Shown in pieces: positions 2-11,857 of a DNA stretch of 11,857 nucleotides. Made by a program: the position numbers and the translations under genes. The DNA is taken from assembly GCA_003693905.1 (NCBI GenBank), contig RFLL01000445.1, positions 1-11,857 on the forward strand, written 5' to 3'. Positions within the stretch are counted from its first letter, which is position 1, and each line of letters opens with the position of its first letter. The notes beneath the pieces are model-generated. The model searched no databases. It was not told the origin of the DNA and was given only the letters and a program-made list of their open reading frames with translations. This DNA comes from Alphaproteobacteria bacterium. GTDB taxonomy: Bacteria; Pseudomonadota; Alphaproteobacteria; Kiloniellales; J153.

Positions 2-619
2 CTGCTACCTTGGATTTTCATGGCGCTTTCCGATGCCGGCATGGCAACGGGTGTCGCCGTTGTCGCCCTGGGCGGGGCCGCAGCTATCGTTGCGGTCTGC
101 GTTCTCGGCGCACTGCGCGGGCGAACCGGCCTCAGCATGCGTCTGCCTGCCGGGTTGCGCAATCATGTGCTGTTCCGCCTGGCGTTCGATCTTGCAACCG
201 TCACACGGGTCATTTTTCGAGCCCCGGTGCCGGCCGGCAGCGCACTTGTCGCAAGCTTGGCAGTCAGCGCCTTAAATGCAGCCATCATCTATATTCTTCT
301 GATCGACCTAGGGGCCGTGCTCACGCTTTTCGAGAGCCTTCTTCTGGTGCCGACGATCATGGAAATCGCCATGCTTCCGATCACCATTTCAGGCTGGGGC
401 GTGCGTGAAGGTCTGATGGTCGCCGCCTTCAGCTCGCTCGGCATCGATGGCAGTATCGCACTTGGGAGCTCGATTCTTTTCGGCCTCGGTGGGCTCGCAT
501 TTGCCCTCACGGGCGGTGTTCTGTGGCTGATGAGTCGCCCGCACCGCAGCAAAGGCTCCATGGCCGGCGAGCCGGCAGCCGCCCCCTCCCCCGCGATCGC
601 CGACAACCGCGGGCGATAA
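2..619 (+). CDS. Flippase-like / LPG-synthase membrane-domain protein, C-terminal part
   Basis: This is the 3' part of an integral membrane protein. The frame is open to the left window edge, so the ATG at 20 is probably internal. The product is very hydrophobic, with about four to five likely membrane segments (numbering from the ATG at 20: about 8-32, 75-97, 100-125 and 145-171), then a polar Ala/Pro-rich tail. The motif TISGWGVREG at 122-131 is typical of the lysylphosphatidylglycerol synthase membrane region / flippase-like family (UPF0104, PF03706), where a Pro...GGxGxRE motif is conserved near the C-terminus. Many members lie in surface-polysaccharide or lipid-carrier loci, which fits this neighbourhood, but the substrate cannot be read from the sequence. 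It ends 54 bases before the convergent E1 beta gene. The family call is fairly safe; the function is open. Confidence 0.72.
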   Translation: MLPWIFMALSDAGMATGVAVVALGGAAAIVAVCVLGALRGRTGLSMRLPAGLRNHVLFRLAFDLATVTRVIFRAPVPAGSALVASLAVSALNAAIIYILLIDLGAVLTLFESLLLVPTIMEIAMLPITISGWGVREGLMVAAFSSLGIDGSIALGSSILFGLGGLAFALTGGVLWLMSRPHRSKGSMAGEPAAAPSPAIADNRGR

Positions 620-673: not shown

Positions 674-1708
674 TCAGTACGGCCCTTTGAAAGTGTCTTC
701 CCGGTCGATATCACCGACCAGTTCCGGATCGATCCCGATCACGTGCAAGGCCAAGCGTGCAATGGTCGAAGCCTTCGGATAGAAGGCCTGCTCTAATGTC
801 TGCGACACCGGAGCCGGGCAATCAGCCAAGGCCAAGCGGCGCACCGGCGCTTTGAGATCGTGGAACGCCTTTTCCGCACACAATGCCGCGATCTCGCTCG
901 TCACGCCGCATCGCTCCCAACTCGTATCGGCAACGATCACGCGCCCCGTTTTCTTCACCGACGCCAGAACCGTCTCCTCATCGAGCGGGCGAATGCTGCG
1001 CAGATCGACAACCTCTGCATCAACATCATGGCGGGCCAGTTCCTCGGCCGCATCCAGTGCCTCCTGAACCATGAGCGAGGTGGCGACGATGGTGAGATCC
1101 CGTCCCGGGCGCAGGATCGCCGCCTTTCCGATCGGCGTTTCTTCCGGTTCTTCCGGTACTTCGCCTTCCACGTTGTAAAGTGCGCGGTGCTCCAGAATGA
1201 TTGTCGGATGATCATGACGGCAGGCACTGAGCAGCAGGCCCTTGGCATCGCGCGGGGTCGCCGGCATCAACACCGTCAATCCCGGAAAATGTGCCAGCGG
1301 CGCTTGCAGACTCTGTGAATGGGTCGCCCCCTGCCCCCATCCCTTGCCGATGACCGCACGCACCACGATGGGCACCGAGCCCGCGTTGCCGCCGTACATA
1401 TAACGCCATTTTGCGGCCAGGTTGATAAGCTGATCAAAGGCCAGAAGCATGAAGTCGTTGCGCGGGTGGACCATGATCGGTCGTTTGCCCATGGCCGCGG
1501 CCCCGATGCAGATGCCCGTGAAGGCATTTTCCATGGCCGGTGTATCGAAGACTCTGGCCGGGCCGAATCGCTTCAACGCCTCTGTCGTGGTGCCGAAAAT
1601 ACCCGACGGATAGTCGACTGCAATCCCGGCGCAAAAAACGTTGGGATCGCGCTCCATAGCCTGAACGGTGCCTTCGGATATGGCCTGATGGTATTTGAGC
1701 GTGCGCAT
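674..1708 (-). CDS. Thiamine-diphosphate 2-oxoacid dehydrogenase E1-type, beta subunit
   Basis: This 344-residue protein matches the usual length of a 2-oxoacid dehydrogenase E1 beta subunit (PDH/acetoin-dehydrogenase type). Residues about 1-180 form the pyrimidine-binding transketolase-like domain. Glu60 in DTPAMENAFTGICIGAA sits where the ThDP-activating glutamate is found. The segment around GKGWGQGATHSQS (about 121-133) and His130 match the family's substrate loop. Residues about 203-330 form the transketolase C-terminal domain, including VVDLRSIRPLD (233-243). With the alpha subunit it should bind ThDP and decarboxylate a 2-oxoacid, or transfer the resulting C2 unit. It lies 72 bases downstream of the alpha gene in the same operon; a Shine-Dalgarno is weak (GAAAG about 12 bases upstream). 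No E2 or E3 gene is visible, so a role in the energy-metabolism complex is doubtful. A sugar-modifying C2 transfer is an inference from the neighbours. Confidence 0.88.
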   Translation of the reverse strand: MRTLKYHQAISEGTVQAMERDPNVFCAGIAVDYPSGIFGTTTEALKRFGPARVFDTPAMENAFTGICIGAAAMGKRPIMVHPRNDFMLLAFDQLINLAAKWRYMYGGNAGSVPIVVRAVIGKGWGQGATHSQSLQAPLAHFPGLTVLMPATPRDAKGLLLSACRHDHPTIILEHRALYNVEGEVPEEPEETPIGKAAILRPGRDLTIVATSLMVQEALDAAEELARHDVDAEVVDLRSIRPLDEETVLASVKKTGRVIVADTSWERCGVTSEIAALCAEKAFHDLKAPVRRLALADCPAPVSQTLEQAFYPKASTIARLALHVIGIDPELVGDIDREDTFKGPY

Positions 1709-1780
1709 TCGTCGACTGCTTTCAAGTTCACGAAAACCAACAATGTAAAGTCACGTCGCAGGTACCGAGCGCCCGCGACT

Positions 1781-2839
1781 CTATAAGTAATCGAACAGAT
1801 CCCCGGCTTCTGGCCAAGGCGCGCGGCGGGCACGTTCGAAATCGGCAACAACCTCTTTTTCGATTTCTGCCGCCCAAGCGGAAATTTCTCTTTCGTCGGC
1901 AAGCCCGAGCGAGATCAGACGTGCGGCACTTTGCTTGAGTGGACAGCGTTCAACCCACAGATCGAATTCTTCCTTGGTGCGATATGTGCGCCCCGCATCA
2001 TGATCAAACTGAGGGCCGACGTGCTCACGCCAACGGTAGGTCATGCATTCGATAAACGACGGCCCTGCTCCGCTTCGCGCGCGGTCCACCGCTCGCCGGG
2101 CCGCCAGATAGACTGCGGCCACATCATTACCGTCAACCTTTTCTGCCGGCACCGAAAAGCTCTCGGCACGGGCACAAAGCTCGGTTCCCGGAGGTTGACG
2201 AACCGATAGCGGACTTTCCGTCGAATAGAGATTGTTCTCGCAGACGTAGATGACCGGCAATCGGTTGATCGCGGCAAAATTCATGCTTTCGTAGATGACG
2301 CCTTCTTCACAGGTTGCCTCGCCGAAGAATGTCACCGCAACACGATCGACCCCATCCATCCGAAACGCCAAGGCGCTGCCTGTCGCCACGGCCACCGTTT
2401 GTCCGAGAATAGCGCTGGAAACGATGAAACCGTTGTCGCGATCGGTCAGATGGACCGAGCCGCCACGCCCACGTGCGGCACCGTCAACACGCCCGTAGAG
2501 CTCTGCCGCAAGTCGATAAACGCTGCCGCCACAGGCCAGATAATGATTGTGGCAACGGTGGTGGCTGTAGAGCGCATCATCTCTGCGAACCGCCGCTGCA
2601 ACACCGGCAGCGACGGCCTCCTGCCCGGTCCCGAGGTGGGTCGGGGTACGCATCTCCTGCTGCGGATAAAGTCGCGCAATGGTTTCTTCGGTATGGCGGA
2701 TGCGCTGCATGCTGCGGTGCAGATCGAGCAGGACAGACGCCGCAAGCGCCTGCCCGTGAACGGTAACACGTCTTTCCCGAAGGTCGCGCGTTCCCCAGCT
2801 TTCCGGCATCTCCGTCTTCTGCTCCAATCGATTCGACAT
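1781..2839 (-). CDS. Thiamine-diphosphate 2-oxoacid dehydrogenase E1-type, alpha subunit
   Basis: A 352-residue E1 alpha-family protein of usual length. THLGTGQEAVAAGV (67-80), RGRGGSVHLTD (123-133, with His130) and GQTVAVATGSALA (146-158) are characteristic of the ThDP-binding alpha subunit. The diphosphate/Mg-binding motif runs from GEAT at 173-176 to ENN at 201-203. The usual GDG is changed to GEA here, with the acidic metal ligand kept as Glu. The ATG at 2839 is supported by GAAGGG (plus-strand 2846-2851) six bases upstream. It is the first gene of a two-gene minus-strand operon, divergent from the sugar operon across 384 bases. Together with the beta subunit it should form an alpha2beta2 E1-like enzyme. 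E1-like pairs without E2/E3 occur in nucleotide-sugar pathways that attach a two-carbon branch; that role is inferred here. Housekeeping PDH, acetoin or branched-chain oxoacid dehydrogenase are less likely from context. Confidence 0.88.
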   Translation of the reverse strand: MSNRLEQKTEMPESWGTRDLRERRVTVHGQALAASVLLDLHRSMQRIRHTEETIARLYPQQEMRTPTHLGTGQEAVAAGVAAAVRRDDALYSHHRCHNHYLACGGSVYRLAAELYGRVDGAARGRGGSVHLTDRDNGFIVSSAILGQTVAVATGSALAFRMDGVDRVAVTFFGEATCEEGVIYESMNFAAINRLPVIYVCENNLYSTESPLSVRQPPGTELCARAESFSVPAEKVDGNDVAAVYLAARRAVDRARSGAGPSFIECMTYRWREHVGPQFDHDAGRTYRTKEEFDLWVERCPLKQSAARLISLGLADEREISAWAAEIEKEVVADFERARRAPWPEAGDLFDYL

Positions 2840-3223
2840 CCCAGACCCTTCGTTCCAGACCCCTGCTCTAGTCCTTCTTGTTCGCCGCCGCCCCTTGCGT
2901 TGCCGTTCGCCCTCCGTTCAATGGTCGGATCGCGCAACGCAAATTGTGCGCACACAAGCGATTTCAGGCCGTTCCCCGGCACCGCCCCTTTTTTGTTTGC
3001 GCCGGTCGCAAATTGGGGTTTCATCGGTTGGTTAATGCATGTACATAACCGCCCGCTGGGGCAGGGGCAAGGCCTCTCAAGCTCGGAACGAAACCGGAAC
3101 GCTCGACCGCAAGCGACGACCGGGAACCGTGCGGGGCAAGGGTTGCGGTTGTGCCTGCGCCGGCATGGAAGTCTGTTCCGATCCGGCCCTTTCAGGCAGC
3201 CTCGAAACCATGACCGTAACGAG
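2840..3223. promoter_or_regulatory. Divergent intergenic region between E1 operon and sugar operon
   Basis: These 384 bases separate the start of the minus-strand E1 alpha gene from the plus-strand SIS gene, so promoters for both operons are expected here. I could not find a convincing -35/-10 pair in either direction. Visible items are the E1 alpha Shine-Dalgarno (2846-2851), a palindromic element at 2944-2957, a T-rich patch (about 2987-2999) and an AT-richer stretch around 3011-3048. Open frames run through it on both strands, but none resembles a known protein. Confidence 0.5.
2944..2957. promoter_or_regulatory. Palindromic element, candidate operator
   Basis: TTGTG-CGCA-CACAA is a perfect five-base inverted repeat with a four-base spacer; within it TGTGCGCACA (2945-2954) is a perfect ten-base palindrome. 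It lies 105 bases upstream of the E1 alpha start and 266 bases upstream of the SIS start, a position suited to control of one or both operons. A single short palindrome in GC-rich DNA can arise by chance, so this is only a candidate. Confidence 0.25.
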
Positions 3224-3808
3224 ATGACCCATACCGGCACCTACTTCAACGAAGTCTCCCGGATCGCCCGCGATATCGATATAGAGGCGATCGAAGCCAT
3301 GGTCGAAGAACTGCGGGCCCTGCGGGCACGTGGCGGACGCCTGTTTCTGCTGGGGGTTGGCGGCAGTGCCGCGAATTGTTCCCATGCCGTCAATGATTTT
3401 CGCAAACTGTGCGGAATCGAAGCCTATACCCCCACCGACAACGTTTCCGAACTGACCGCACGCACCAATGACGAAGGATGGGAGAGCGTTTTCGCCGGCT
3501 GGCTGAAAACCAGCCGGCTGAGCGACCAGGATGCGATTTTCGTTCTTTCGGTGGGCGGCGGCGACGCTGCCCGCAATGTCAGCCCCAATCTGGTCAGGGC
3601 GCTCGATTTCGCGGTCGAACGCGGCGCGCGCATTCTCGGCGTGGTCGGACGCGATGGTGGTCATGCAGCGCGCACGGGCGACGCCGTGGTGGTGATCCCG
3701 ACCGTTGCGCCGGATCGGGTCACACCGCATACGGAGGCATTCCAGGCCGTGATCTGGCATTGCCTTGTCTCGCACCCCCGTCTGCAGACGGCGGCAACCA
3801 AGTGGTAG
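3224..3808 (+). CDS. SIS-domain sugar-phosphate isomerase, GmhA-like
   Basis: A 194-residue SIS-domain protein, the size of phosphoheptose isomerase (GmhA), which converts sedoheptulose 7-phosphate to a heptose 7-phosphate in the cytoplasm. GVGGSAANCSH (44-54) matches the first phosphate-binding loop of GmhA. LSVGGGDAARNVSPN (108-122) takes the place of the usual STSGNSxNV loop, and GRDGGHAARTGD (142-153) matches the GKDGG segment. His179, in the C-terminal helix, lies close to the catalytic His of GmhA; the catalytic Glu of E. coli GmhA appears to be Asp58. It is therefore a divergent subfamily and its substrate may not be sedoheptulose 7-phosphate. The start at 3224 was chosen because it precedes the conserved region; upstream sequence in this frame does not look coding. 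The Shine-Dalgarno is poor. The gene opens the operon and stops seven bases before the phosphatase-transaldolase gene. Confidence 0.85.
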   Translation: MTHTGTYFNEVSRIARDIDIEAIEAMVEELRALRARGGRLFLLGVGGSAANCSHAVNDFRKLCGIEAYTPTDNVSELTARTNDEGWESVFAGWLKTSRLSDQDAIFVLSVGGGDAARNVSPNLVRALDFAVERGARILGVVGRDGGHAARTGDAVVVIPTVAPDRVTPHTEAFQAVIWHCLVSHPRLQTAATKW

Positions 3809-3815
3809 CTGGCCA

Positions 3816-5120
3816 ATGGTAGATGGAGCCCCCCTTCGCAAAGCCGTTTTTCTTGACCGCGACGGGGTCATCAATCGTGCCTGGATCAAGAACGGTCGCC
3901 CCTTTCCACCGCCCTCCCCCGCCGACTTTTCGCTTCTTCCCGGAGTTGCTGCGGCGGTGCGCCGCCTGCATGCGGCCGGTTACCTGATCGTCGTCTGCAC
4001 CAACCAGCCCGATGTGGCGACCGGCCGCCAGTCGCGCGAGGCGGTCGAGGCCATGCACGCGAAGCTGCGCAGTTGGCTGCCGGTGGACGATATCCGCGTC
4101 TGCTATCACATCGACGAACACGACTGTACGTGTCGAAAGCCACGCCCCGGCATGCTGACCGGTGCCGCCGCGGCGTTGGGCATCGACCTCGGCCGCAGTT
4201 ACATGGTCGGTGACCGATGGCGCGATATAGAGGCGGGACAGGCTGCCGGCTGCTTCCCCATTCTGATCGAATCGGACTATAGTGAATGCAGACCCGACCC
4301 GCCGTTCATTCGCGTAAGTTCGCTGGCCGAGGCCGCTGCGTTCATCATAAATCGCGACACACACAACGAGAGTTCCGCCATGCCTTCCGTCCACGGTCTC
4401 CGCGTAAAGATCTTTGCTGATGGCGCCGACCTTGCCAGCATCGAACGGCTCTATGCCGATCCGATCATCAAGGGATTCACAACCAACCCGACCCTGATGC
4501 GCAAGGCAGGCGTGAGCGATTACGAAGCCTTTGCCAGAAAGGTGCTCACGATCGTGCCCGACCGGCCGGTTTCGTTCGAGGTTTTCGCCGATGATCATGG
4601 CGAGATGGAAACTCAGGCAAAGCATATTCAGTCCTGGGGACCGAACGTATTCGTCAAGATTCCGGTGACCAACACGCGCGGCGAATCTTCGGCCCCTCTG
4701 GTCCGCCGGCTGGCAGCGGAGGGCGTACAAGTCAACGTGACGGCACTGTTTACCCTCGATCAGGTACGAGAGATCACCGATGCCCTGCACCCGGAAATCG
4801 CGGCGAATATTTCGGTGTTCGCCGGTCGTATTGCTGACAGTGGGCGCGACCCGATGCCGATCATGGCCGAAGCCGTGGAGATCATGAAGGCACGGCCCAA
4901 GGCGGAACTTATCTGGGCCAGCCCGCGCGAGCTGCTCAACGTATTCCAAGCCGATGCGGTGAACTGCCACATCATTACGGCAACGCCGGATATTCTCAAA
5001 AAGCTCGAACTGGTGGGCAAGGATCTCGATCAGTTCTCGCTTGATACCGTGGCCATGTTCTACCGTGATGCACAGGCCGCAGGGTACAGTATCGACATCG
5101 GTCGTTGCGCTGCCGAATAG
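3816..5120 (+). CDS. Fused HAD phosphatase (GmhB-like) - transaldolase
   Basis: One uninterrupted 434-residue frame carries two enzymes. Residues 1-188 are a HAD-IIIA phosphatase like GmhB (heptose 1,7-bisphosphate 7-phosphatase): motif I FLDRDGVIN (12-20, Asp14 and Asp16), motif II CTNQ (61-64), a zinc loop with Cys96, His98, Cys104 and Cys106 followed by RKPRPG, and motif IV VGDRWRDIEAG (131-141). Residues 189-434 are a class I transaldolase: FADGAD (200-205), FTTNPTL (221-227), VFVKIPVT (278-285) with Lys281 as Schiff-base lysine, VNVTALFT (306-313) and SVFAGRIADSGRD (333-345). Both halves are full length with their key residues intact. The protein could supply a ketose phosphate by C3 transfer and later remove the terminal phosphate of the bisphosphate intermediate. 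An internal ATG at 4380 marks the join. The fusion is seen directly in the sequence; the substrates are inferred. Confidence 0.87.
   Translation: MVDGAPLRKAVFLDRDGVINRAWIKNGRPFPPPSPADFSLLPGVAAAVRRLHAAGYLIVVCTNQPDVATGRQSREAVEAMHAKLRSWLPVDDIRVCYHIDEHDCTCRKPRPGMLTGAAAALGIDLGRSYMVGDRWRDIEAGQAAGCFPILIESDYSECRPDPPFIRVSSLAEAAAFIINRDTHNESSAMPSVHGLRVKIFADGADLASIERLYADPIIKGFTTNPTLMRKAGVSDYEAFARKVLTIVPDRPVSFEVFADDHGEMETQAKHIQSWGPNVFVKIPVTNTRGESSAPLVRRLAAEGVQVNVTALFTLDQVREITDALHPEIAANISVFAGRIADSGRDPMPIMAEAVEIMKARPKAELIWASPRELLNVFQADAVNCHIITATPDILKKLELVGKDLDQFSLDTVAMFYRDAQAAGYSIDIGRCAAE
4368..4372 (+). promoter_or_regulatory. Internal Shine-Dalgarno before the transaldolase domain
   Basis: GAGAG sits seven bases before the in-frame ATG at 4380, exactly where the HAD domain ends and the transaldolase domain begins. 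This looks like the ribosome-binding site of a formerly separate transaldolase gene, and may still produce a 246-residue free transaldolase alongside the fusion. There is no stop codon in this frame between the domains. Confidence 0.45.
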
Positions 5121-6193
5121 TTGGCAGCGCTGTCCTGCAATGGAACGACGACACGAAAGAAACACACTCATACCAAGGAAGTGAGCGGGCCGAGAAGAAA
5201 GTTTTGGTGACCGGTGGTGCCGGCTATGTCGGCAGCGTGCTTACGCCGCAGCTTCTCGATGAAGGCTACGACGTGACCGTTTATGACATCATGTTCTTCG
5301 GCGATGACTTCCTGCCGAAAGATCACCCGCGCCTCAATACCATTCGCGGCGATATTCGCGATACAAAGTATCTCGCCAAGGTTTTGGCCGGCCAGGATGC
5401 GGTAATCCATCTCGCCTGTATTTCGAACGATGCGAGCTTCGAGCTCGACGAATCACTCAGCACTTCGATCAACCTTGACGCCTTCGAGCCGATGGTGATC
5501 GCTGCCAAAGAAGCCGGCGTGAAGCGGTTCATCTATGCATCGTCGAGCTCGGTCTACGGCGTCTCCGACGCCCCCGAGGTAACCGAGGACCATCCACTTG
5601 TCCCCCTTACGCTGTACAACAAATATAAAGGCATGTGCGAACCGCGCTTGTTCGCCCACACGGACGAGACGTTCACCGGCGTCGTCTTTCGTCCGGCGAC
5701 GGTCTGTGGCTATGCTCCGCGCCAACGACTTGATCTGTCCGTGAACATCCTCACCAATCATGCAGTGACCAATGGCAAGATCACCGTGTTCGGTGGCAGC
5801 CAGCTCCGACCCAACCTGCACATCCAGGATTATGTTGATCTGTGCAAACTGCTTCTTGTCGCACCCAAGGAGAAAATTGCCGATCAGATTTTCAACTGTG
5901 GTTATCAGAACATGAGCATCATGGACCTTGCGGTGCTCGTAAAGAAGGTAGTCGAGGAACACTTCCCGGAAAAGGCTCCGATCGACATCGTAACCACCCC
6001 GACCGACGATATCCGTAGCTATCACATTAATTCCGACAAGATCCGTCGCGTGCTCGGTTTCCAGCCCAAGCATACGATCGAGGAGGCGATTGCCGATCTA
6101 TGCCGGGCATTCGGAGATGGCCTTCTGCCCGACAGTATGACCAATGACTGGTATTACAATGTGCGTATGCTCAAGAAGCTGAACGCCGCATGA
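5105..6193 (+). CDS. NAD-dependent epimerase/dehydratase (extended SDR)
   Basis: This is an extended short-chain dehydrogenase/reductase that acts on nucleotide-activated sugars. Numbering from the TTG at 5105, the NAD-binding motif TGGAGYVGS is at 36-44, the Ser region ASSSSVYG at 146-153, and the catalytic Tyr/Lys pair is Tyr172 and Lys176 in LYNKYK. Family members include 4-epimerases and 4,6-dehydratases; I cannot choose the reaction. The start is unresolved: no in-frame ATG precedes KKVLVTGG, and the listed TTG overlaps the transaldolase gene by 16 bases and adds about 30 residues. Other candidates are TTG 5204 and GTG 5207, which would cut the first beta strand. A good AAGGAAG lies at 5175-5181 without a matching in-frame start. 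It ends in a four-base ATGA overlap with the next SDR gene, implying coupled translation. Confidence 0.8.
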   Translation: MRCRIVGSAVLQWNDDTKETHSYQGSERAEKKVLVTGGAGYVGSVLTPQLLDEGYDVTVYDIMFFGDDFLPKDHPRLNTIRGDIRDTKYLAKVLAGQDAVIHLACISNDASFELDESLSTSINLDAFEPMVIAAKEAGVKRFIYASSSSVYGVSDAPEVTEDHPLVPLTLYNKYKGMCEPRLFAHTDETFTGVVFRPATVCGYAPRQRLDLSVNILTNHAVTNGKITVFGGSQLRPNLHIQDYVDLCKLLLVAPKEKIADQIFNCGYQNMSIMDLAVLVKKVVEEHFPEKAPIDIVTTPTDDIRSYHINSDKIRRVLGFQPKHTIEEAIADLCRAFGDGLLPDSMTNDWYYNVRMLKKLNAA

Positions 6194-7185
6194 TGTCCGA
6201 ACCGCTTGCCGTCGTCACCGGCGGAGCTGGATTTATCGGCAGCCACATGGTCGATCTGCTGATCGACCGGGGTTTTCGTGTCCACGTGATTGATAATCTG
6301 GTCGGTGGACGGCGCGCCAACCTTGCCCATCACGCCGACAATCCGCGTGTCCGTCTGTTCGAGACGGACGTGCGGACTTGCATGCCGGGAGATCTGGCTT
6401 TTGACGGGGCACACTATGTCTTCCACTTTGCCGGGATCGGCGACATCGTGCCGTCGATTGAAAAACCGGCCGAGTACATGTCGGTCAACGTCCAAGGCAC
6501 GGTGCAGGCACTGGAATGCGCGCGAGCAGCGGGCGTCAGAAAATTCGTCTACGCGGCATCATCATCGTGCTATGGCGTCGCCGAGACGCCAACCCGCGAG
6601 GATCATCCGATCCGTCCGCTCTACCCCTACGCACTCAGCAAGTACATGGGCGAGGAAGCAGGCTTCCACTGGTGCCGGGTCTACGGGCTGCCGGTCAACT
6701 CGATCCGCATTTTCAACGCCTATGGCACCCGTTCGCGCACATCGGGCGCCTACGGTGCGGTGATCGGCGTTTTCCTGCGCCAGAAGCTCGCCGGTGCGCC
6801 GTTCACGGTGGTTGGCGACGGTACTCAGTCGCGCGATTTCGCCTATGTTACCGACGTTGCACGGGCCTTCTTTCTGGCCGCCGAGACCGACCGCGTGGGG
6901 GAAGTGTGGAACGTGGGCTCCAACAATCCGCAGACCGTCAACCGTCTGGTCGAGCTGCTTGGCGGCGGACCTGTCGAATACCTGCCGAAACGCCCAGGCG
7001 AACCCGACGTAACCTGGGCCGACACAGGCAAGATCGAACGCGAACTCGGCTGGAAGCCAGAAGTCTCGTTCGAAGAAGGTATTGCCCGGATCATCGAGAA
7101 CATCGACTACTGGCGCGATGCGCCGCTGTGGACGGCAGAGACCATCGATGCTGCCACCCGGACCTGGTTCAAATACATGCGTTGA
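6190..7185 (+). CDS. NAD-dependent epimerase/dehydratase, UDP-glucose 4-epimerase-like (extended SDR)
   Basis: A 331-residue extended SDR with TGGAGFIGSH (10-19), AASSSCYGVAE (122-132), the catalytic YPYALSKY (145-152; Tyr147, Lys151), RIFNAYGTRSR (173-183) and the C-terminal GDGTQSRDFAYVTDVA (209-224) typical of UDP-hexose 4-epimerases and related dehydratases. All catalytic residues are present, so it should be an active enzyme on an NDP-sugar. ATG codons at 6190 and 6193 are both possible; the first overlaps the previous stop (ATGA), which suggests translational coupling. It ends 12 bases before the HldE-like gene. Likely reactions are C4 (or other ring-carbon) epimerisation or oxidation to a keto sugar; an NDP-heptose epimerase is a reasonable alternative given the neighbours. 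Confidence 0.86.
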   Translation: MMSEPLAVVTGGAGFIGSHMVDLLIDRGFRVHVIDNLVGGRRANLAHHADNPRVRLFETDVRTCMPGDLAFDGAHYVFHFAGIGDIVPSIEKPAEYMSVNVQGTVQALECARAAGVRKFVYAASSSCYGVAETPTREDHPIRPLYPYALSKYMGEEAGFHWCRVYGLPVNSIRIFNAYGTRSRTSGAYGAVIGVFLRQKLAGAPFTVVGDGTQSRDFAYVTDVARAFFLAAETDRVGEVWNVGSNNPQTVNRLVELLGGGPVEYLPKRPGEPDVTWADTGKIERELGWKPEVSFEEGIARIIENIDYWRDAPLWTAETIDAATRTWFKYMR

Positions 7186-7197
7186 GAGGCGCGCTCA

Positions 7198-8748
7198 ATG
7201 GATTCGGCGACCCGCAAACAACTCGGTCGGAAGATTAAAACTCTGGACGAGCTTTATTCGATCATCGGCCCACGACCGCGCGAGAAAAAGGTCATCATGT
7301 GTCACGGCACCTTTGATGTCGTGCATCCTGGCCATCTGCGCCACCTGATGTATGCCAAATCGAAGGCTGATATCCTGATCGCCAGCCTGACGGCCGACGC
7401 CCATATCGCCAAGGCACACTTTCGTCCTTACGTGCCGCAGGACCTCAGGGCACTCAACCTCGCCGCCTTCGAGATTGTCGATTACGTCATCATCGACCCG
7501 AATCCGACGCCGCTTGAACATTTGCGCATTCTTCAGCCCGACTATTTTGCCAAGGGCTACGAATATGCGAATGGCGGCCTGCATCCCAAGACCCAGGAAG
7601 AAGTCGCCGTTCTCGAAAGTTACGGTGGCGAGATGATTTTCACCCCTGGTGATGTCGTCTATTCGTCCTCGCACCTTATTGATCTCGCCCCGCCCGACAT
7701 CCGCACCGAAAAGCTGATGATGCTGCTCGATGGCGAAGGGCTGTCTTTCCGCGACCTATACGAGTGTCTGCCCCGTCTGTCCGGGCTCAAGGTCCACGTC
7801 GTAGGCGACACCATTGTCGATACACTGACCAACTGCACGATGATCGGCGGGATCACCAAGACGCCGACGATCAGCGTACGGTTTGGAAACAAGGAAGACT
7901 TCGTAGGCGGTGCCGGCATCGTCGCCAAACACCTCAGGGCGGCCGGCGCCGATGTAACCTTTACCACCGTGCTCGGTGATGATGCTTATCGTGATTTCGT
8001 ACTCGACGACCTGCGCTCTTTCGGCGTCAACGTCAACGCGATCATCGATGAAACCCGGCCGACGACCAACAAGAATGCAATCGTGGCTGGCGGCTATCGG
8101 CTGCTCAAGGTGGATACCCTCGACAATCGCTCCATCTCCGACAAGATCGTCGAGCGCTTTTGCAATGACATTGCAGCCCACAAATCCGATGTAGTGGTGT
8201 TCAGCGATTTTCGCCACGGCATTTTCAACCGACACACCATATCACCCATGATCGAGGCAATTCCCTCCGCCGCGCTGCGGGTGGCCGACAGTCAGGTCGC
8301 AAGCCGTTGGGGCAACATCCTCGAATTTCAGGGGTTCGATCTGATTACCCCGAATGAACGGGAAGCACGCTTTGCACTGGGGGACCAGGACTCGGTGGTT
8401 CGTCCATTGGCAACTGAGCTGCATCGGCGCGCACACTGCAAAACTCTGATCCTCAAGCTCGGCGACCGTGGCATCCTGACCTACCGCACTCGCCCCGAAG
8501 GTGATCCGCGCACCTTCTTCGTCATCGACAGCTTTGCCGGTCACGTGCGCGATGCCGTGGGAGCCGGCGACGCATTGCTTGCCTATGCCGCGCTGACCCT
8601 TGCCGCCACCGGCAACGAGGTACTGGCATCCGTCATCGGCTCGATGGCGGCAGGCATTGAATGCGAGTTTGACGGTAACCAGCCGGTTACACCTGACAAC
8701 GTACACAAGAAGATTTCTGACATCGAGCGCGAAGCCAACTACGGCTGA
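7198..8748 (+). CDS. HldE-like bifunctional nucleotidyltransferase-PfkB kinase, domains in reversed order
   Basis: A 516-residue, two-domain protein. Residues about 30-165 are a cytidylyltransferase-fold nucleotidyltransferase like the RfaE/HldE nucleotidyltransferase domain: HGTFDVVHPGH (36-46) holds the HxGH signature (His43, His46), and YSSSHLID (155-162) aligns with the closing STT/STS motif. Residues about 195-505 are a PfkB/ribokinase-type kinase like the HldE kinase domain: VVGDTIVD (201-208), FVGGAGIVAKHL (235-246), TPNEREA (384-390) and DAVGAGDALLAY (452-463) with Asp458 as probable catalytic base. In E. coli HldE the kinase comes first; here the order is swapped. Expected activities are phosphorylation of C1 of a sugar phosphate and, after phosphatase action, NMP transfer to give an NDP-sugar. 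GAGAGG (7184-7189) eight bases before the ATG supports the start. The GmhA- and GmhB-like neighbours support a heptose-type pathway. Confidence 0.88.
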   Translation: MDSATRKQLGRKIKTLDELYSIIGPRPREKKVIMCHGTFDVVHPGHLRHLMYAKSKADILIASLTADAHIAKAHFRPYVPQDLRALNLAAFEIVDYVIIDPNPTPLEHLRILQPDYFAKGYEYANGGLHPKTQEEVAVLESYGGEMIFTPGDVVYSSSHLIDLAPPDIRTEKLMMLLDGEGLSFRDLYECLPRLSGLKVHVVGDTIVDTLTNCTMIGGITKTPTISVRFGNKEDFVGGAGIVAKHLRAAGADVTFTTVLGDDAYRDFVLDDLRSFGVNVNAIIDETRPTTNKNAIVAGGYRLLKVDTLDNRSISDKIVERFCNDIAAHKSDVVVFSDFRHGIFNRHTISPMIEAIPSAALRVADSQVASRWGNILEFQGFDLITPNEREARFALGDQDSVVRPLATELHRRAHCKTLILKLGDRGILTYRTRPEGDPRTFFVIDSFAGHVRDAVGAGDALLAYAALTLAATGNEVLASVIGSMAAGIECEFDGNQPVTPDNVHKKISDIEREANYG

Positions 8749-8796
8749 TCCCGCCTTCATGCTGGAAGACGCAGGAGATGGAGATAGAGAGGCGTC

Positions 8797-9741
8797 ATGC
8801 GCGTCATCGTCGTCGGCATGGGAATACAGGGAGCCAAGCGACGCGCCGTGGCAGGTGCCGACGTAGTCGCCACAGTCGACCCACTGCGCGATGATGCCGA
8901 CCGACGCGACGTGCAGGAAGTTCCCCTAGATACCTATGACGCCGCCCTGGTCTGTACACCCGACGAACCCAAGATCGCGTTGATCGAATATCTGCTCGGC
9001 CACCAGAAGCACGTACTGGTTGAGAAGCCTCTGTTCGCACCCGACGGCGATACGGCCTTCGACCGGCTGGCAGCCCTCGCCCGCGACAACAATGTGATAT
9101 GCTACACTGCTTATAACCACCGCTTCGAGCCCCATTTCCAGCGCATGAAGGAGGTGCTGGATTCGGGAGTGCTCAAGACCGTCTATGCGCTGCGTATGTT
9201 CTACGGCAATGGCACCGCGCGACTGGTCCGCGAATCGGGATGGCGCGATCGGGGGGCGGGCGTCTTGCCTGACCTCGGCTCGCATCTTCTCGACACGGTG
9301 TTGTTCTGGCTCGGTCAACCACCCGAGGCGCCGTTCCAGGTACAGCTTGCACGATGCCACGAGAATCGGGCGTTCGATCATGTAGTGATCACCTGCGATG
9401 GTGCGCCGGCCATTCAGCTTGAAATGATGCTTCTGTCGTGGCGCAACGAATTCTATGCCGACCTCTACGCTGAAGCGGGCAGTGCGCACATCCGCTCACT
9501 CTGCAAGTGGGGACCGAGCAGTTTCATCCTGCGCGACCGCAAACTGCCCAGCGGTCGCCCTGACGAGCGAGCCGAAACCCTGGTCCAGCCCGACCCGACA
9601 TGGGCACTTGAATACGCACACTTCAAGCGTCTGTGCGCCGCGCCGGCTGCGCATGGCTTCGGCAATCTCGACAATGACCGCTGGATCGGCGCTGTGCTTT
9701 CCGACCTTGCGCGCCAGGCACTCGGAGATAAGGCAAACTGA
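8797..9741 (+). CDS. Gfo/Idh/MocA-family oxidoreductase
   Basis: A 314-residue NAD(P)-dependent oxidoreductase. The N-terminal Rossmann motif is VVGMGIQGAKR (5-15), with the acidic VDP at 27-29 suggesting NAD. VCTPDEPK (52-59) and VEKPLF (75-80, Lys77) are the family signatures; YNHRFEP (106-112) and LPDLGSHLLD (157-166, with Asp159 and His163) match the substrate-binding part of the second domain. Family members oxidise or reduce hydroxyl/keto groups of sugars, including nucleotide sugars in surface-glycan pathways, where they often act at C3. The purine-rich stretch ending GAGAGG at 8787-8792, just before the ATG, serves as ribosome-binding site. It follows the HldE-like gene after 48 bases and stops one base before the UGD-like gene. 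The exact substrate is unknown. Confidence 0.86.
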   Translation: MRVIVVGMGIQGAKRRAVAGADVVATVDPLRDDADRRDVQEVPLDTYDAALVCTPDEPKIALIEYLLGHQKHVLVEKPLFAPDGDTAFDRLAALARDNNVICYTAYNHRFEPHFQRMKEVLDSGVLKTVYALRMFYGNGTARLVRESGWRDRGAGVLPDLGSHLLDTVLFWLGQPPEAPFQVQLARCHENRAFDHVVITCDGAPAIQLEMMLLSWRNEFYADLYAEAGSAHIRSLCKWGPSSFILRDRKLPSGRPDERAETLVQPDPTWALEYAHFKRLCAAPAAHGFGNLDNDRWIGAVLSDLARQALGDKAN

Positions 9742-9742
9742 C

Positions 9743-11026
9743 ATGACCCCACGTCCCACGGTCGGTTTTGCCGGCATGACCCACCTTGGCCTCAACTCGG
9801 CGGCGGCGGCCGCAGCGCGCGGTTTCGCCACCGTGTGCTATGACCCCGATACGACCCTGATCGACCGGATCGAGGTGGGTGACCTGCCAGTAGTCGAACC
9901 CGATCTGCTGGAGACCATCGCCAAGAACACCGATCGGCTGACCTTTACGGCAGATGCACAACGGCTTGGCGAGTGTGACGTTATTTATATTGCCGCTGAT
10001 GTACCTACCGATGACCATGGTGAGAGCAACCTTGCACCCATTGAAAGGCTGTTCGCCACGGTCTCGGCCCAAGCCCGCACCGATGCCGCAGTAGTAATCC
10101 TGAGCCAAGTACCACCCGGCTTCACTCGCCGTCTTGCAGGTGACGGGAAACAGCTTTTCTATCAGGTCGAAACCCTGATCTTCGGCCGCGCGGTGGACCG
10201 CGCACTCAATCCTGAACGGTTCATCGTCGGCTGCGCCGATCCGGCGCACCCCTTACCTGCGGCGTTGCATGCCTTTCTCGCGGCCTTCGAGTGCCCGATT
10301 CTGCCCATGCGCTATGAAAGCGCCGAACTTGCGAAGATTTCGATCAACTGCTGCCTAGTCGCCTCGATCAGCGTTGCCAACACGCTTGCCGAACTCAGCG
10401 AGAAGATCGGCGCCGACTGGGCGGAGATCGCGCCGGCATTGAAGCTGGACCGGCGCATCGGCCCTCATGCCTATCTGACCCCGGGACTTGGCATCGCAGG
10501 CGGCAACCTGGAACGCGATCTCGCGACCGTCTGTCGCTATGCCGATGCGCACGGTACTGATGCCGGCGTGGTGCGGGCGTGGATCGCCAACAGTCGCTAC
10601 CGCAAGGACTGGGCGCTGCGCACCGTGCACACGACCACCATCGCCGCGATCAAGGCGCCGGTGATCGGCATTCTGGGGCTCGCCTACAAGGAGAACACCC
10701 ATTCGACCAAGAATTCACCGGCGATCGCCTTGATCGAGGCGTTGAGACCGTTTGCGCTGCGCCTCCACGACCCGGTGGTTCCGGCTTCAGCCGCCCCGCA
10801 CCCGAACGCCGAGGGGTGTTCTGATGCATTGGCGGTTTGCAATGGTGCGGATGCGGTGCTGATCATGACCCCTTGGCCCGAATACCGCGCGCTTGAACCT
10901 GGACAGATGGCGCAAAAGATGCGTGGGCGCGTGGTGATCGACCCTTACGCGGTTCTCGACGAAGCCGCCTGTCGCGCTACCGGGCTGACCTACCGGCGTC
11001 TTGGCATGATGCCGAACGAAAGTTGA
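9743..11026 (+). CDS. UDP-glucose/GDP-mannose dehydrogenase-like protein lacking the catalytic cysteine
   Basis: A 427-residue protein with the three-domain layout of nucleotide-sugar dehydrogenases. The N-terminal NAD motif is VGFAGMTHLG (7-16), NPERFIVGC (156-164) matches the family's PE motif, and the central helix ESAELAKISIN (192-202) keeps Lys198 and Asn202. The C-terminal UDP-binding domain is visible from about 305 (VIGILGLAYKENT, then STKNSPA). The active-site loop, normally GFGGSCFPKD, reads GIAGGNLERD at 250-259, so the nucleophilic Cys is Asn255. Without it the four-electron oxidation to a uronic acid by the known mechanism should not occur; a two-electron oxidation or reduction, an epimerase-like role, or a non-catalytic role is possible. 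The start at 9743 gives the expected N-terminus and is preceded by AAGG (9730-9733). It lies one base after the MocA-family gene. Confidence 0.82.
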   Translation: MTPRPTVGFAGMTHLGLNSAAAAAARGFATVCYDPDTTLIDRIEVGDLPVVEPDLLETIAKNTDRLTFTADAQRLGECDVIYIAADVPTDDHGESNLAPIERLFATVSAQARTDAAVVILSQVPPGFTRRLAGDGKQLFYQVETLIFGRAVDRALNPERFIVGCADPAHPLPAALHAFLAAFECPILPMRYESAELAKISINCCLVASISVANTLAELSEKIGADWAEIAPALKLDRRIGPHAYLTPGLGIAGGNLERDLATVCRYADAHGTDAGVVRAWIANSRYRKDWALRTVHTTTIAAIKAPVIGILGLAYKENTHSTKNSPAIALIEALRPFALRLHDPVVPASAAPHPNAEGCSDALAVCNGADAVLIMTPWPEYRALEPGQMAQKMRGRVVIDPYAVLDEAACRATGLTYRRLGMMPNES

Positions 11027-11045
11027 CTGAAAAGAGATACAAAGC

Positions 11046-11857
11046 ATGCTTCACCATCACCTTTCTACACCCGACAATCCCGCACGCGTCGTCGTACTTG
11101 GGGCGCGCGGCTTTCTGGGGGCTGCGACCTGCCGGCAACTCGCCGCTCTGGGTATCGAGACCTTGGCACTGGGTTCAAGCGATCTCGACCTTGCCGCCGA
11201 CGATGCCGCGGACCGGCTGTCAAAACAGATCAGGGGTGACGATTCGCTGGTCATGTTCGCGGCTTTGACCCCGGATCGCGGGCGCGACATAGCCACCATG
11301 ATGACCAACCTGCGCATGGCCGAGGCGGTCTGCAACGCGATTATGCGTGCGACTCCGGTTCATATGGTCTACGTCAGCTCGGATGCGGTATATTCCTTCC
11401 GCAGTGCCCTGGTGAACGAAACCACGCCGGCCGAGCCGGGCGACCTTTACGGCGCCATGCACCGCACCCGCGAACTGATGTTCGCGGCAAGCGCAGGAAA
11501 AGCACCGCTCGCCATTTTGCGCCCGACCCTGATCTATGGCCCGGGCGATACTCATAATTCATACGGTCCCAACCGCTTCCGCCGCATGGCCGCCAAGGAC
11601 GGGCGCATTGTTCTCGGCGGTGCGGGTGAGGAGACCCGCGATCATCTGTTCATCGAGGATGCCGCCGAGCTGATCGTCCGCGTGCTGCGCCAACGCAGTG
11701 CCGGGCTGCTCAATCTGGCAAGTGGACGTTCGACAAGCTTCCGCGAGGTGGCCGACCTGGTCGCGGAGCAGTTCGATCCGCCGGCCGCGGTCGACACCAC
11801 CGAGCGCCGCGCGCCGGTCACCCATCGCAGCTTCGATGTCACCGCTCTGCACAAGGC
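11046..11857 (+). CDS. NAD(P)-dependent sugar epimerase/reductase (SDR), cut by window end
   Basis: The frame opened by the ATG at 11046 stays open to the window edge, giving about 270 residues and no stop. It is an extended SDR: VVVLGARGFLG (15-25) is the coenzyme loop, VYVSSDAVYS (108-117) the Ser region, LRPTLIYGPGDT (158-169) and ETRDHLFIEDAAELI (196-210) are typical of nucleotide-sugar epimerases/reductases. The catalytic pair is atypical: Tyr135 is followed by GAM and then His139, where Lys is expected. AAAGAGA (11031-11037) lies eight bases before the start. The gene follows the UGD-like gene after 19 bases and continues the operon. It could be an NDP-4-keto-sugar reductase or epimerase; the missing Lys leaves the activity uncertain. 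Confidence 0.8.
   Translation, partial: MLHHHLSTPDNPARVVVLGARGFLGAATCRQLAALGIETLALGSSDLDLAADDAADRLSKQIRGDDSLVMFAALTPDRGRDIATMMTNLRMAEAVCNAIMRATPVHMVYVSSDAVYSFRSALVNETTPAEPGDLYGAMHRTRELMFAASAGKAPLAILRPTLIYGPGDTHNSYGPNRFRRMAAKDGRIVLGGAGEETRDHLFIEDAAELIVRVLRQRSAGLLNLASGRSTSFREVADLVAEQFDPPAAVDTTERRAPVTHRSFDVTALHK

Follow-up and report, generated by a model that had tools for sequence, protein, structure and literature searches.

Introduction

It is not yet settled how bacteria synthesise the higher-carbon and bicyclic sugars of their surfaces. Among the closest described systems is the GDP-octose route of the lincosamides lincomycin and celesticetin, for which a transaldolase (LmbR), an isomerase (LmbN), a phosphatase (LmbK) and a guanylyltransferase (LmbO) have been confirmed and a kinase (LmbP) predicted (PMC4351081), and in which GDP-octose is converted to GDP-lincosamide via LmbM, LmbL, CcbZ and CcbS (PMC12945683). 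In the GDP-heptose routes of the Campylobacter jejuni capsule, an isomerase, a kinase, a phosphatase and a nucleotidyltransferase are followed by oxidation of the NDP-heptose at C4, carried out on GDP-heptose by Cj1427 (PMC10680097). Here we describe a gene set that is a variant of known higher-carbon sugar pathways. It lies on contig RFLL01000445.1 (C203 in our numbering) of the draft genome of an alphaproteobacterium of the order Kiloniellales (GCA_003693905.1; 59.6% complete), and the whole of this contig, 11,857 nucleotides, is referred to as the window.

A third system of relevance is that of bradyrhizose, which has ten carbons and alone makes up its O-antigen (PMC9912281). In Bradyrhizobium ORS285, mutation of gdh is reported to abolish the bradyrhizose O-antigen, and gdh lies within an 11-gene cluster that is conserved in six photosynthetic strains and located about 40 kb from rfaL; as the authors state, polar effects of the gdh mutation were not excluded, and the bradyrhizose genes had until then been unknown (PMC4743980).

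The remaining parallel is with enzymes that use thiamine diphosphate (ThDP). A review describes certain E1-type pairs as enzymes that attach C2 branches to keto sugars and take pyruvate as the donor, a role backed by feeding, by knockout and by work on one enzyme in vitro with ketones. It treats split transketolases as proposed hydroxyacetyl transferases that had yet to be assayed in vitro and that are named, in the available part of that source, only from streptomycetes (PMC12247030). AviB1/AviB2 and Pau11/Pau12 have likewise been proposed to add the acetyl branch of the avilamycin and paulomycin sugars (PMC4753412). Caryophyllose was considered as a further parallel and set aside; it has been linked to a YerE-like decarboxylase, and neither transaldolase, transketolase nor pyruvate dehydrogenase is mentioned in the available part of one paper on lipooligosaccharide. 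In the open-licence literature that we searched, no description of the gene set reported here was recognised.

On balance, and at somewhat better than even probability, we consider the window to encode a pathway dedicated to making a nucleotide-activated sugar of seven or eight carbons that would be oxidised, here extended by a C2 unit, and used in a surface glycan.

Results

The window carries nine core functions, namely a GmhA-like isomerase, a HAD phosphatase, a transaldolase (TAL), the short-chain dehydrogenases/reductases SDR1 and SDR2, an HldE-like enzyme, a MocA enzyme, a UDP-glucose dehydrogenase (UGD)-like enzyme and SDR3, in an operon on the plus strand that begins at position 3224; the genes for E1 beta and E1 alpha diverge from it on the minus strand (Table 1). 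A first-pass annotation of this DNA had listed these genes as a heptose-type activation pathway joined to C2- and C3-transfer enzymes. Every member that it named is indeed present, in two divergent groups, and a first point that needs amending is that phosphatase and transaldolase share a single open frame (3816-5120), without a stop between the parts. The same one-frame arrangement occurs in Magnetospira (L061, 6512-7783), the row nearest to the window on the HldE tree.

The heptose-like proteins are distinct from the housekeeping enzymes of the same genome, which has gmhA and hldE adjoining each other on another contig (C296) and a pyruvate dehydrogenase (PDH) E1 alpha on a third (C418). The HldE kinase domain scores 134 bits in the window against 349 for the C296 copy (cut-off 345), the SIS_2 domain of the GmhA-like protein 27.8 bits against 76.9 for the C296 gmhA, and the PDH E1 alpha model 286 bits against 518 for the C418 copy (cut-off 394), and the window proteins all fall below the cut-offs of the curated GmhA, GmhB and HldE heptose models. 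The HldE-like protein has its nucleotidyltransferase first and its kinase second, the reverse of the kinase-first housekeeping HldE. The window E1 alpha shares 36% identity with the PDH copy but 56-65% with the E1 alpha proteins near related gene sets, or cassettes, in L033, L062 and L069, and its E1 beta is 66-72% identical to those adjoining the same three cassettes. These score gaps within one genome bear out the earlier view that the heptose-like members are divergent or rearranged, and they are not the organism's only heptose genes.

The cassette is conserved well beyond this genome. Loci were selected by a close HldE or by a transaldolase of the TIGR02134 type, and the counts given here describe those sets; genes were called present from BLAST against mechanically derived open frames, and contig ends truncate many loci. 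Of the 289 genomes of the class, 26 score above the TIGR02134 cut-off, counting that of the window, and when the regions around the other 25, together with two matches just below the cut-off, were examined, 16 of the 27 held five or more of the nine core genes. An HldE alignment scan of named genomes gave at least 532 relatives, the best 80 of which were kept, and among the 96 loci that carry a close HldE at least seven of the nine functions are present in 78 and all nine in 39 (MocA in 94, UGD in 91, SDR1 and SDR2 in 87 each, TAL in 80, SDR3 in 72, HAD in 68 and GmhA in 62). Gene order is mostly constant, with exceptions, read by eye, that include L049, L074, L093 and L108. The genes are therefore conserved together in relatives, beyond what chance would give, as a shared pathway of the kind first proposed supposes. 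The record titles of the close-HldE loci name 13 phyla, mostly from metagenome-assembled genomes with unverified labels, and the HldE tree (94 rows, being 93 loci left after removal of three duplicates plus the window) mixes phyla, as horizontal transfer would; it is a quick tree, with support below 80% on 27 of 92 inner branches. Neither of two plasmid searches gave a close cassette, identity staying under 60% throughout their 41 and 432 records.

Some of these loci call for comment of their own. One observation, on L105 and also on L081, L091, L099 and L119, concerns record titles: the cassette HldE of the record titled Frankia sp. RB7 is nearly identical to that of Bradyrhizobium, and metagenome-assembled genomes that bear the names Akkermansia muciniphila or Bordetella parapertussis seem to be mislabelled. 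Skermanella aerolata (G293, the genome of L066) has a second SDR1 homologue, 73% identical to that of the window, on another contig, and may hold two cassettes. In L040 and L052 the GmhA, HAD and transaldolase genes are the only part of the cassette present, and these initial steps may there serve a different purpose.

The residues compared here have established catalytic roles in the reference enzymes, and their changes are uniform across the cassette family. In the UGD-like protein, Asn (Asn254 in the window) takes the place of the catalytic Cys in each of the 86 rows, out of 89, that are readable there, as it does in all 120 proteins among the matches listed by a profile search in which 8000 candidates were scored, while Lys and Asn are retained in 87 of 87 rows; E. 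coli Ugd carries the Cys (given as Cys253 by a column-dropping alignment in which the E. coli numbering is off) within a GGxCxPKD motif. To judge by these residues, oxidation of an alcohol may be within reach of the enzyme, but no acid should result. Formation of a uronic acid was therefore rejected as unlikely, the catalytic Cys being missing, and this is the second point on which the first-pass annotation is amended. Relative to E. coli, the GmhA-like protein has Asp at Glu65 in 59 of 59 readable rows and Gln at His175 in 56 of 60, with His180 retained in all 60; loss of His180 had been entertained and was discarded, as direct alignment left that residue intact and only Glu65 and His175 changed. 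Elsewhere the residues are the expected ones: Asp14, Thr35, Asn36, Glu67 and Lys93 of the transaldolase are all present in 78 of 78 rows, the HxGH of HldE in 94 of 94 and the Gly and Asp of its GAGD in 93 of 93 readable, and the EKP motif of MocA is retained in readable rows.

The contig ends inside SDR3, and the genes past it are unseen. In many relatives SDR3 is followed by a methyltransferase of about 218 residues, often by SDR4, which is of the 4,6-dehydratase type, and then by a split transketolase or an E1 pair. The methyltransferase is found in 49 of the 53 loci that extend at least 6 kb beyond UGD (duplicates kept), a region that the window's contig does not reach. Across the 94 rows the ThDP enzyme is a transketolase in 39, an E1 pair in 17, both in one and neither in 37, and in the 53 long loci the figures are 29, 11, one and 12. 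This either/or pattern gives p = 1.6e-4 in a Fisher test of E1 against transketolase that ignores kinship and still includes three duplicate loci. The HldE tree calls for a minimum of 12 switches between E1 and transketolase, and the E1 label takes 15 changes against a shuffled mean of 15.8; that is, it is scattered no less than in the shuffles. Such repeated exchange suggests that the two enzymes do comparable jobs, namely C2 transfer. Like the described E1-type (alpha-KADH2) pairs, the window E1 alpha/beta adjoins sugar-nucleotide genes and is distinct from PDH, but those pairs act on hexose-derived keto sugars of antibiotics, whereas the neighbours in the window point to a C7/C8 sugar. The ThDP motif has an established role in E1 alpha; in place of its customary Asp the window protein has Glu, the residue seen in 8 of the 19 E1 alpha rows from cassettes.

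The comparison with bradyrhizose required its cluster to be located. The core of the forward gdh primer, at no more than two mismatches, was found in 6 of 242 genomes of the genus Bradyrhizobium. In one of these (G453) the forward cores of ORS285 gdh and rfaL both match without mismatch, about 46 kb apart, and this genome is probably that of ORS285 itself or of a near relative. For the rfaL core of ORS278, the matches in G471, G459 and G453 are equal. In L148, from G471, eleven genes were counted from the HldE-like gene to a methyltransferase gene (5972-16069; two labels assigned by eye), the gdh primers of PMC4743980 fit an open frame at 9870-10868, and we infer that these eleven genes are the cluster of that paper. 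The arrangement, with a swapped HldE, an SDR1-type gene, a GmhA-type gene, gdh, a split transketolase and a methyltransferase, is repeated in L147 and L149-L152, and two C-methyltransferase-like genes lie just beyond the L148 cluster.

Seven of the L148 cluster genes have counterparts in the cassette family. Three of these are in the window (swapped HldE, 32% identity; SDR1, 44%; GmhA, 28%), and cassette relatives provide those of gdh (SDR4, 34%), TktN (42%), TktC (40%) and the methyltransferase (42%); a pairing of gdh with SDR1 was considered and rejected, as sequence comparison pairs it with SDR4. Both kinds of GmhA have N51, N57, D58, E171, Q174 and H179, five of which differ from E. coli. 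The differences are equally clear. The eleven genes include no counterparts of TAL, SDR2, MocA, UGD or SDR3 and have an extra nucleotidyltransferase and an alcohol dehydrogenase, whereas the window has an E1 pair instead of a split transketolase and no gdh-type SDR before the contig end. The cassette is thus not the bradyrhizose cluster itself, which is without TAL, MocA and UGD. As bradyrhizose is the only component of its O-antigen, however, the shared families probably serve one sugar. By an untested arithmetic of our own, a heptose, a C2 unit and one methyl group would give ten carbons.

The likeness to the lincosamide route is drawn by enzyme class. Transaldolase, SIS isomerase, kinase, phosphatase and nucleotidyltransferase occur together in the window as they do in that route, and in all eight classes match (LmbR, N, P, K, O, M, L and Z), where we take LmbL, LmbZ and LmbM to be of the UGD, MocA and SDR folds. 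Unlike that route, the window has kinase and nucleotidyltransferase fused in the HldE-like protein, and it has extra SDRs and a ThDP enzyme; domain and curated-model scans of the window proteins gave no aminotransferase (LmbS-like, for C6) and no lincosamide condensation or S-transfer enzyme such as the S-glycosyltransferase. The Campylobacter capsule routes share the isomerase, kinase, phosphatase and nucleotidyltransferase, but in the available part of PMC10680097 no transaldolase, UGD-like, MocA or ThDP enzyme is named.

Other genes at or near the cassettes are less securely placed. A 36% homologue of the flippase-like protein at the start of the window also adjoins GmhA in L089. A protein of about 610 residues, which we presume to be a NodU-type carbamoyltransferase, lies near cassettes in 7 of 80 loci and in L033 (L033:12617-14458; L115:18649-20490), and a DegT-like protein, its family judged by eye, in 19 of 80 related loci. 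The HAD phosphatase part contains HAD-IIIA and histidinol-phosphatase domains above their cut-offs.

Table 1. Features of the window, with position, strand and basis of assignment
Feature	Position	Strand	Basis or remark
LPG_synthase_TM flippase-like membrane protein, 3' part	2..619	+	PF03706 42.7 bits (cut-off 33.4); neighbour, membership unsure
E1 beta (ThDP enzyme, proposed C2 transfer)	674..1708	-	Transket_pyr and Transketolase_C domains
E1 alpha	1781..2839	-	E1_dh 224 bits
GmhA-like SIS isomerase, altered active site	3224..3808	+	SIS_2 27.5 bits (cut-off 27)
HAD phosphatase, GmhB-like, in frame with transaldolase	3816..4379	+	PRK08942 121 bits (below cut-off 178)
Transaldolase (TAL), TIGR02134 type	4380..5120	+	342 bits (cut-off 282); internal ATG at 4380
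SDR1, proposed NDP-sugar C4 dehydrogenase	5186..6193	+	Best solved relative 6vo6 124 bits, next 85
SDR2, GalE-like epimerase or dehydratase	6190..7185	+	GalE-type structures 4zrm and 7ys8 at 167 bits
HldE-like bifunctional enzyme, domain-swapped	7198..8748	+	CTP_transf_like 35-125, PfkB 199-474
MocA/Gfo/Idh oxidoreductase	8797..9741	+	PF22725, PF01408
UGD-like NDP-sugar dehydrogenase without catalytic Cys	9746..11026	+	Three UGD domains
SDR3, truncated by contig end, Lys of YxxxK is His	11046..11857	+	His for Lys in 70 of 70 readable rows

Discussion

In gene content and conservation the idea of the first-pass annotation is to a large extent upheld. The class match with the lincosamide route and the families shared with the bradyrhizose cluster support the higher-carbon sugar proposed by the first-pass annotation, while the choice between octose and heptose, the action of the E1 pair and the surface glycan are still predictions. 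In the pathway that we infer, in which substrates, positions, backbone length, C2 acceptor and product are all tentative, the transaldolase would add a C3 unit to a sugar phosphate to give an octulose 8-phosphate (or a heptulose 7-phosphate), which the altered GmhA would convert from ketose to aldose and which would then be activated by the HldE kinase, the HAD phosphatase and the HldE nucleotidyltransferase. Oxidation of the ring, possibly at C4, would fall to SDR1 and that of a further alcohol, with no acid formed, to the UGD-like enzyme that lacks its Cys, and MocA, SDR2 and SDR3 would reduce or epimerise. The E1 pair would then take an acetyl unit from pyruvate and add it to a keto group, a step in which the split transketolase of other genomes would presumably carry hydroxyacetyl, and the sugar would go to a surface glycan. 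A C4 ketone would suit ThDP branching, and the position of the acceptor is a guess. We lean slightly towards an octose backbone, favoured by the near-constant transaldolase and the lincosamide parallel; a heptose, favoured by the same GmhA signature in a cluster without a transaldolase, seems rather unlikely, if still worth serious attention.

Several observations weigh against this pathway. The bradyrhizose cluster has the GmhA signature yet no transaldolase, which speaks for a heptose, and the Bradyrhizobium GmhA is overall slightly closer to the housekeeping GmhA of the window's genome (31%) than to that of the window (28%). Eleven of the 27 class regions hold at most four core genes, six of them the transaldolase alone, and the TIGR02134-type transaldolase must therefore also serve other routes. 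The catalytic Lys of SDR3 gives way to His in all 70 readable rows, which leaves the role of this protein unclear, and 51 of the 70 have His for Tyr as well, the window keeping its Tyr. There is no glycosyltransferase within the window. Finally, 12 of the 53 long loci have no ThDP gene nearby, and the C2 step may therefore be optional or unrelated.

If it is unrelated, the set might be a modified heptose route without C2 extension, of the Campylobacter capsule GDP-heptose type, in which the transaldolase would do no more than supply sedoheptulose 7-phosphate and the E1 pair would have another task. The isomerase, kinase, phosphatase and nucleotidyltransferase are all of heptose type, and the nearest solved relative of SDR1 is 6vo6, which we take to be the GDP-heptose C4 dehydrogenase Cj1427. 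Sedoheptulose 7-phosphate requires no dedicated transaldolase, however, the active site of the GmhA-like protein is altered, and a ThDP enzyme does accompany the cassette in 41 of the 53 long loci, so that we regard this explanation as unlikely.

It is less likely again that two sugars are made side by side, the nine-gene set producing one and the E1 pair or transketolase, with SDR4 and the methyltransferase, producing a C2-branched other, the two being co-inherited. That would fit the position of the ThDP genes at the cassette edge or, in the window, on the opposite strand, as well as the 4,6-dehydratase type of SDR4 and the known products of such ThDP enzymes, which are C2 branches on hexoses. 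The bradyrhizose-type cluster, however, groups GmhA, HldE, SDR1, gdh (the SDR4 counterpart), transketolase and methyltransferase in one place, and its O-antigen has a single component.

The class match with the lincosamide octose genes could also indicate a small lincosamide-like secondary metabolite in place of a surface glycan, but this appears improbable given the spread over many phyla, the O-antigen made by the related bradyrhizose-type cluster and the want of lincosamide condensation or S-transfer enzymes in the window. A second copy of the ordinary ADP-heptose supply for the lipopolysaccharide inner core, suggested by the same broad enzyme families, is hardly credible and was rejected, as the genome has its own housekeeping copies elsewhere, the HldE order is reversed, every curated heptose model is missed and the active-site changes are uniform.

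The route to an oxidised, C2-extended C7/C8 sugar may extend further. We raise, with rather less confidence than the pathway in the window itself, the idea of an undescribed multi-phylum route in which a nucleotide-activated octose is oxidised without formation of an acid and is then lengthened or branched with a C2 unit from a swappable enzyme, acetyl from an E1 pair or hydroxyacetyl from a split transketolase, to yield sugars of at least ten carbons, with bradyrhizose as the one known product of the superfamily. A conserved set with an exchangeable C2 step would make such a route testable enzyme by enzyme, and cultured carriers, among them Skermanella aerolata and Bradyrhizobium manausense, are named whose glycans are open to analysis. 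Our results suggest that bacterial surfaces may carry sugars of 8-10 carbons far more often than has been recognised.

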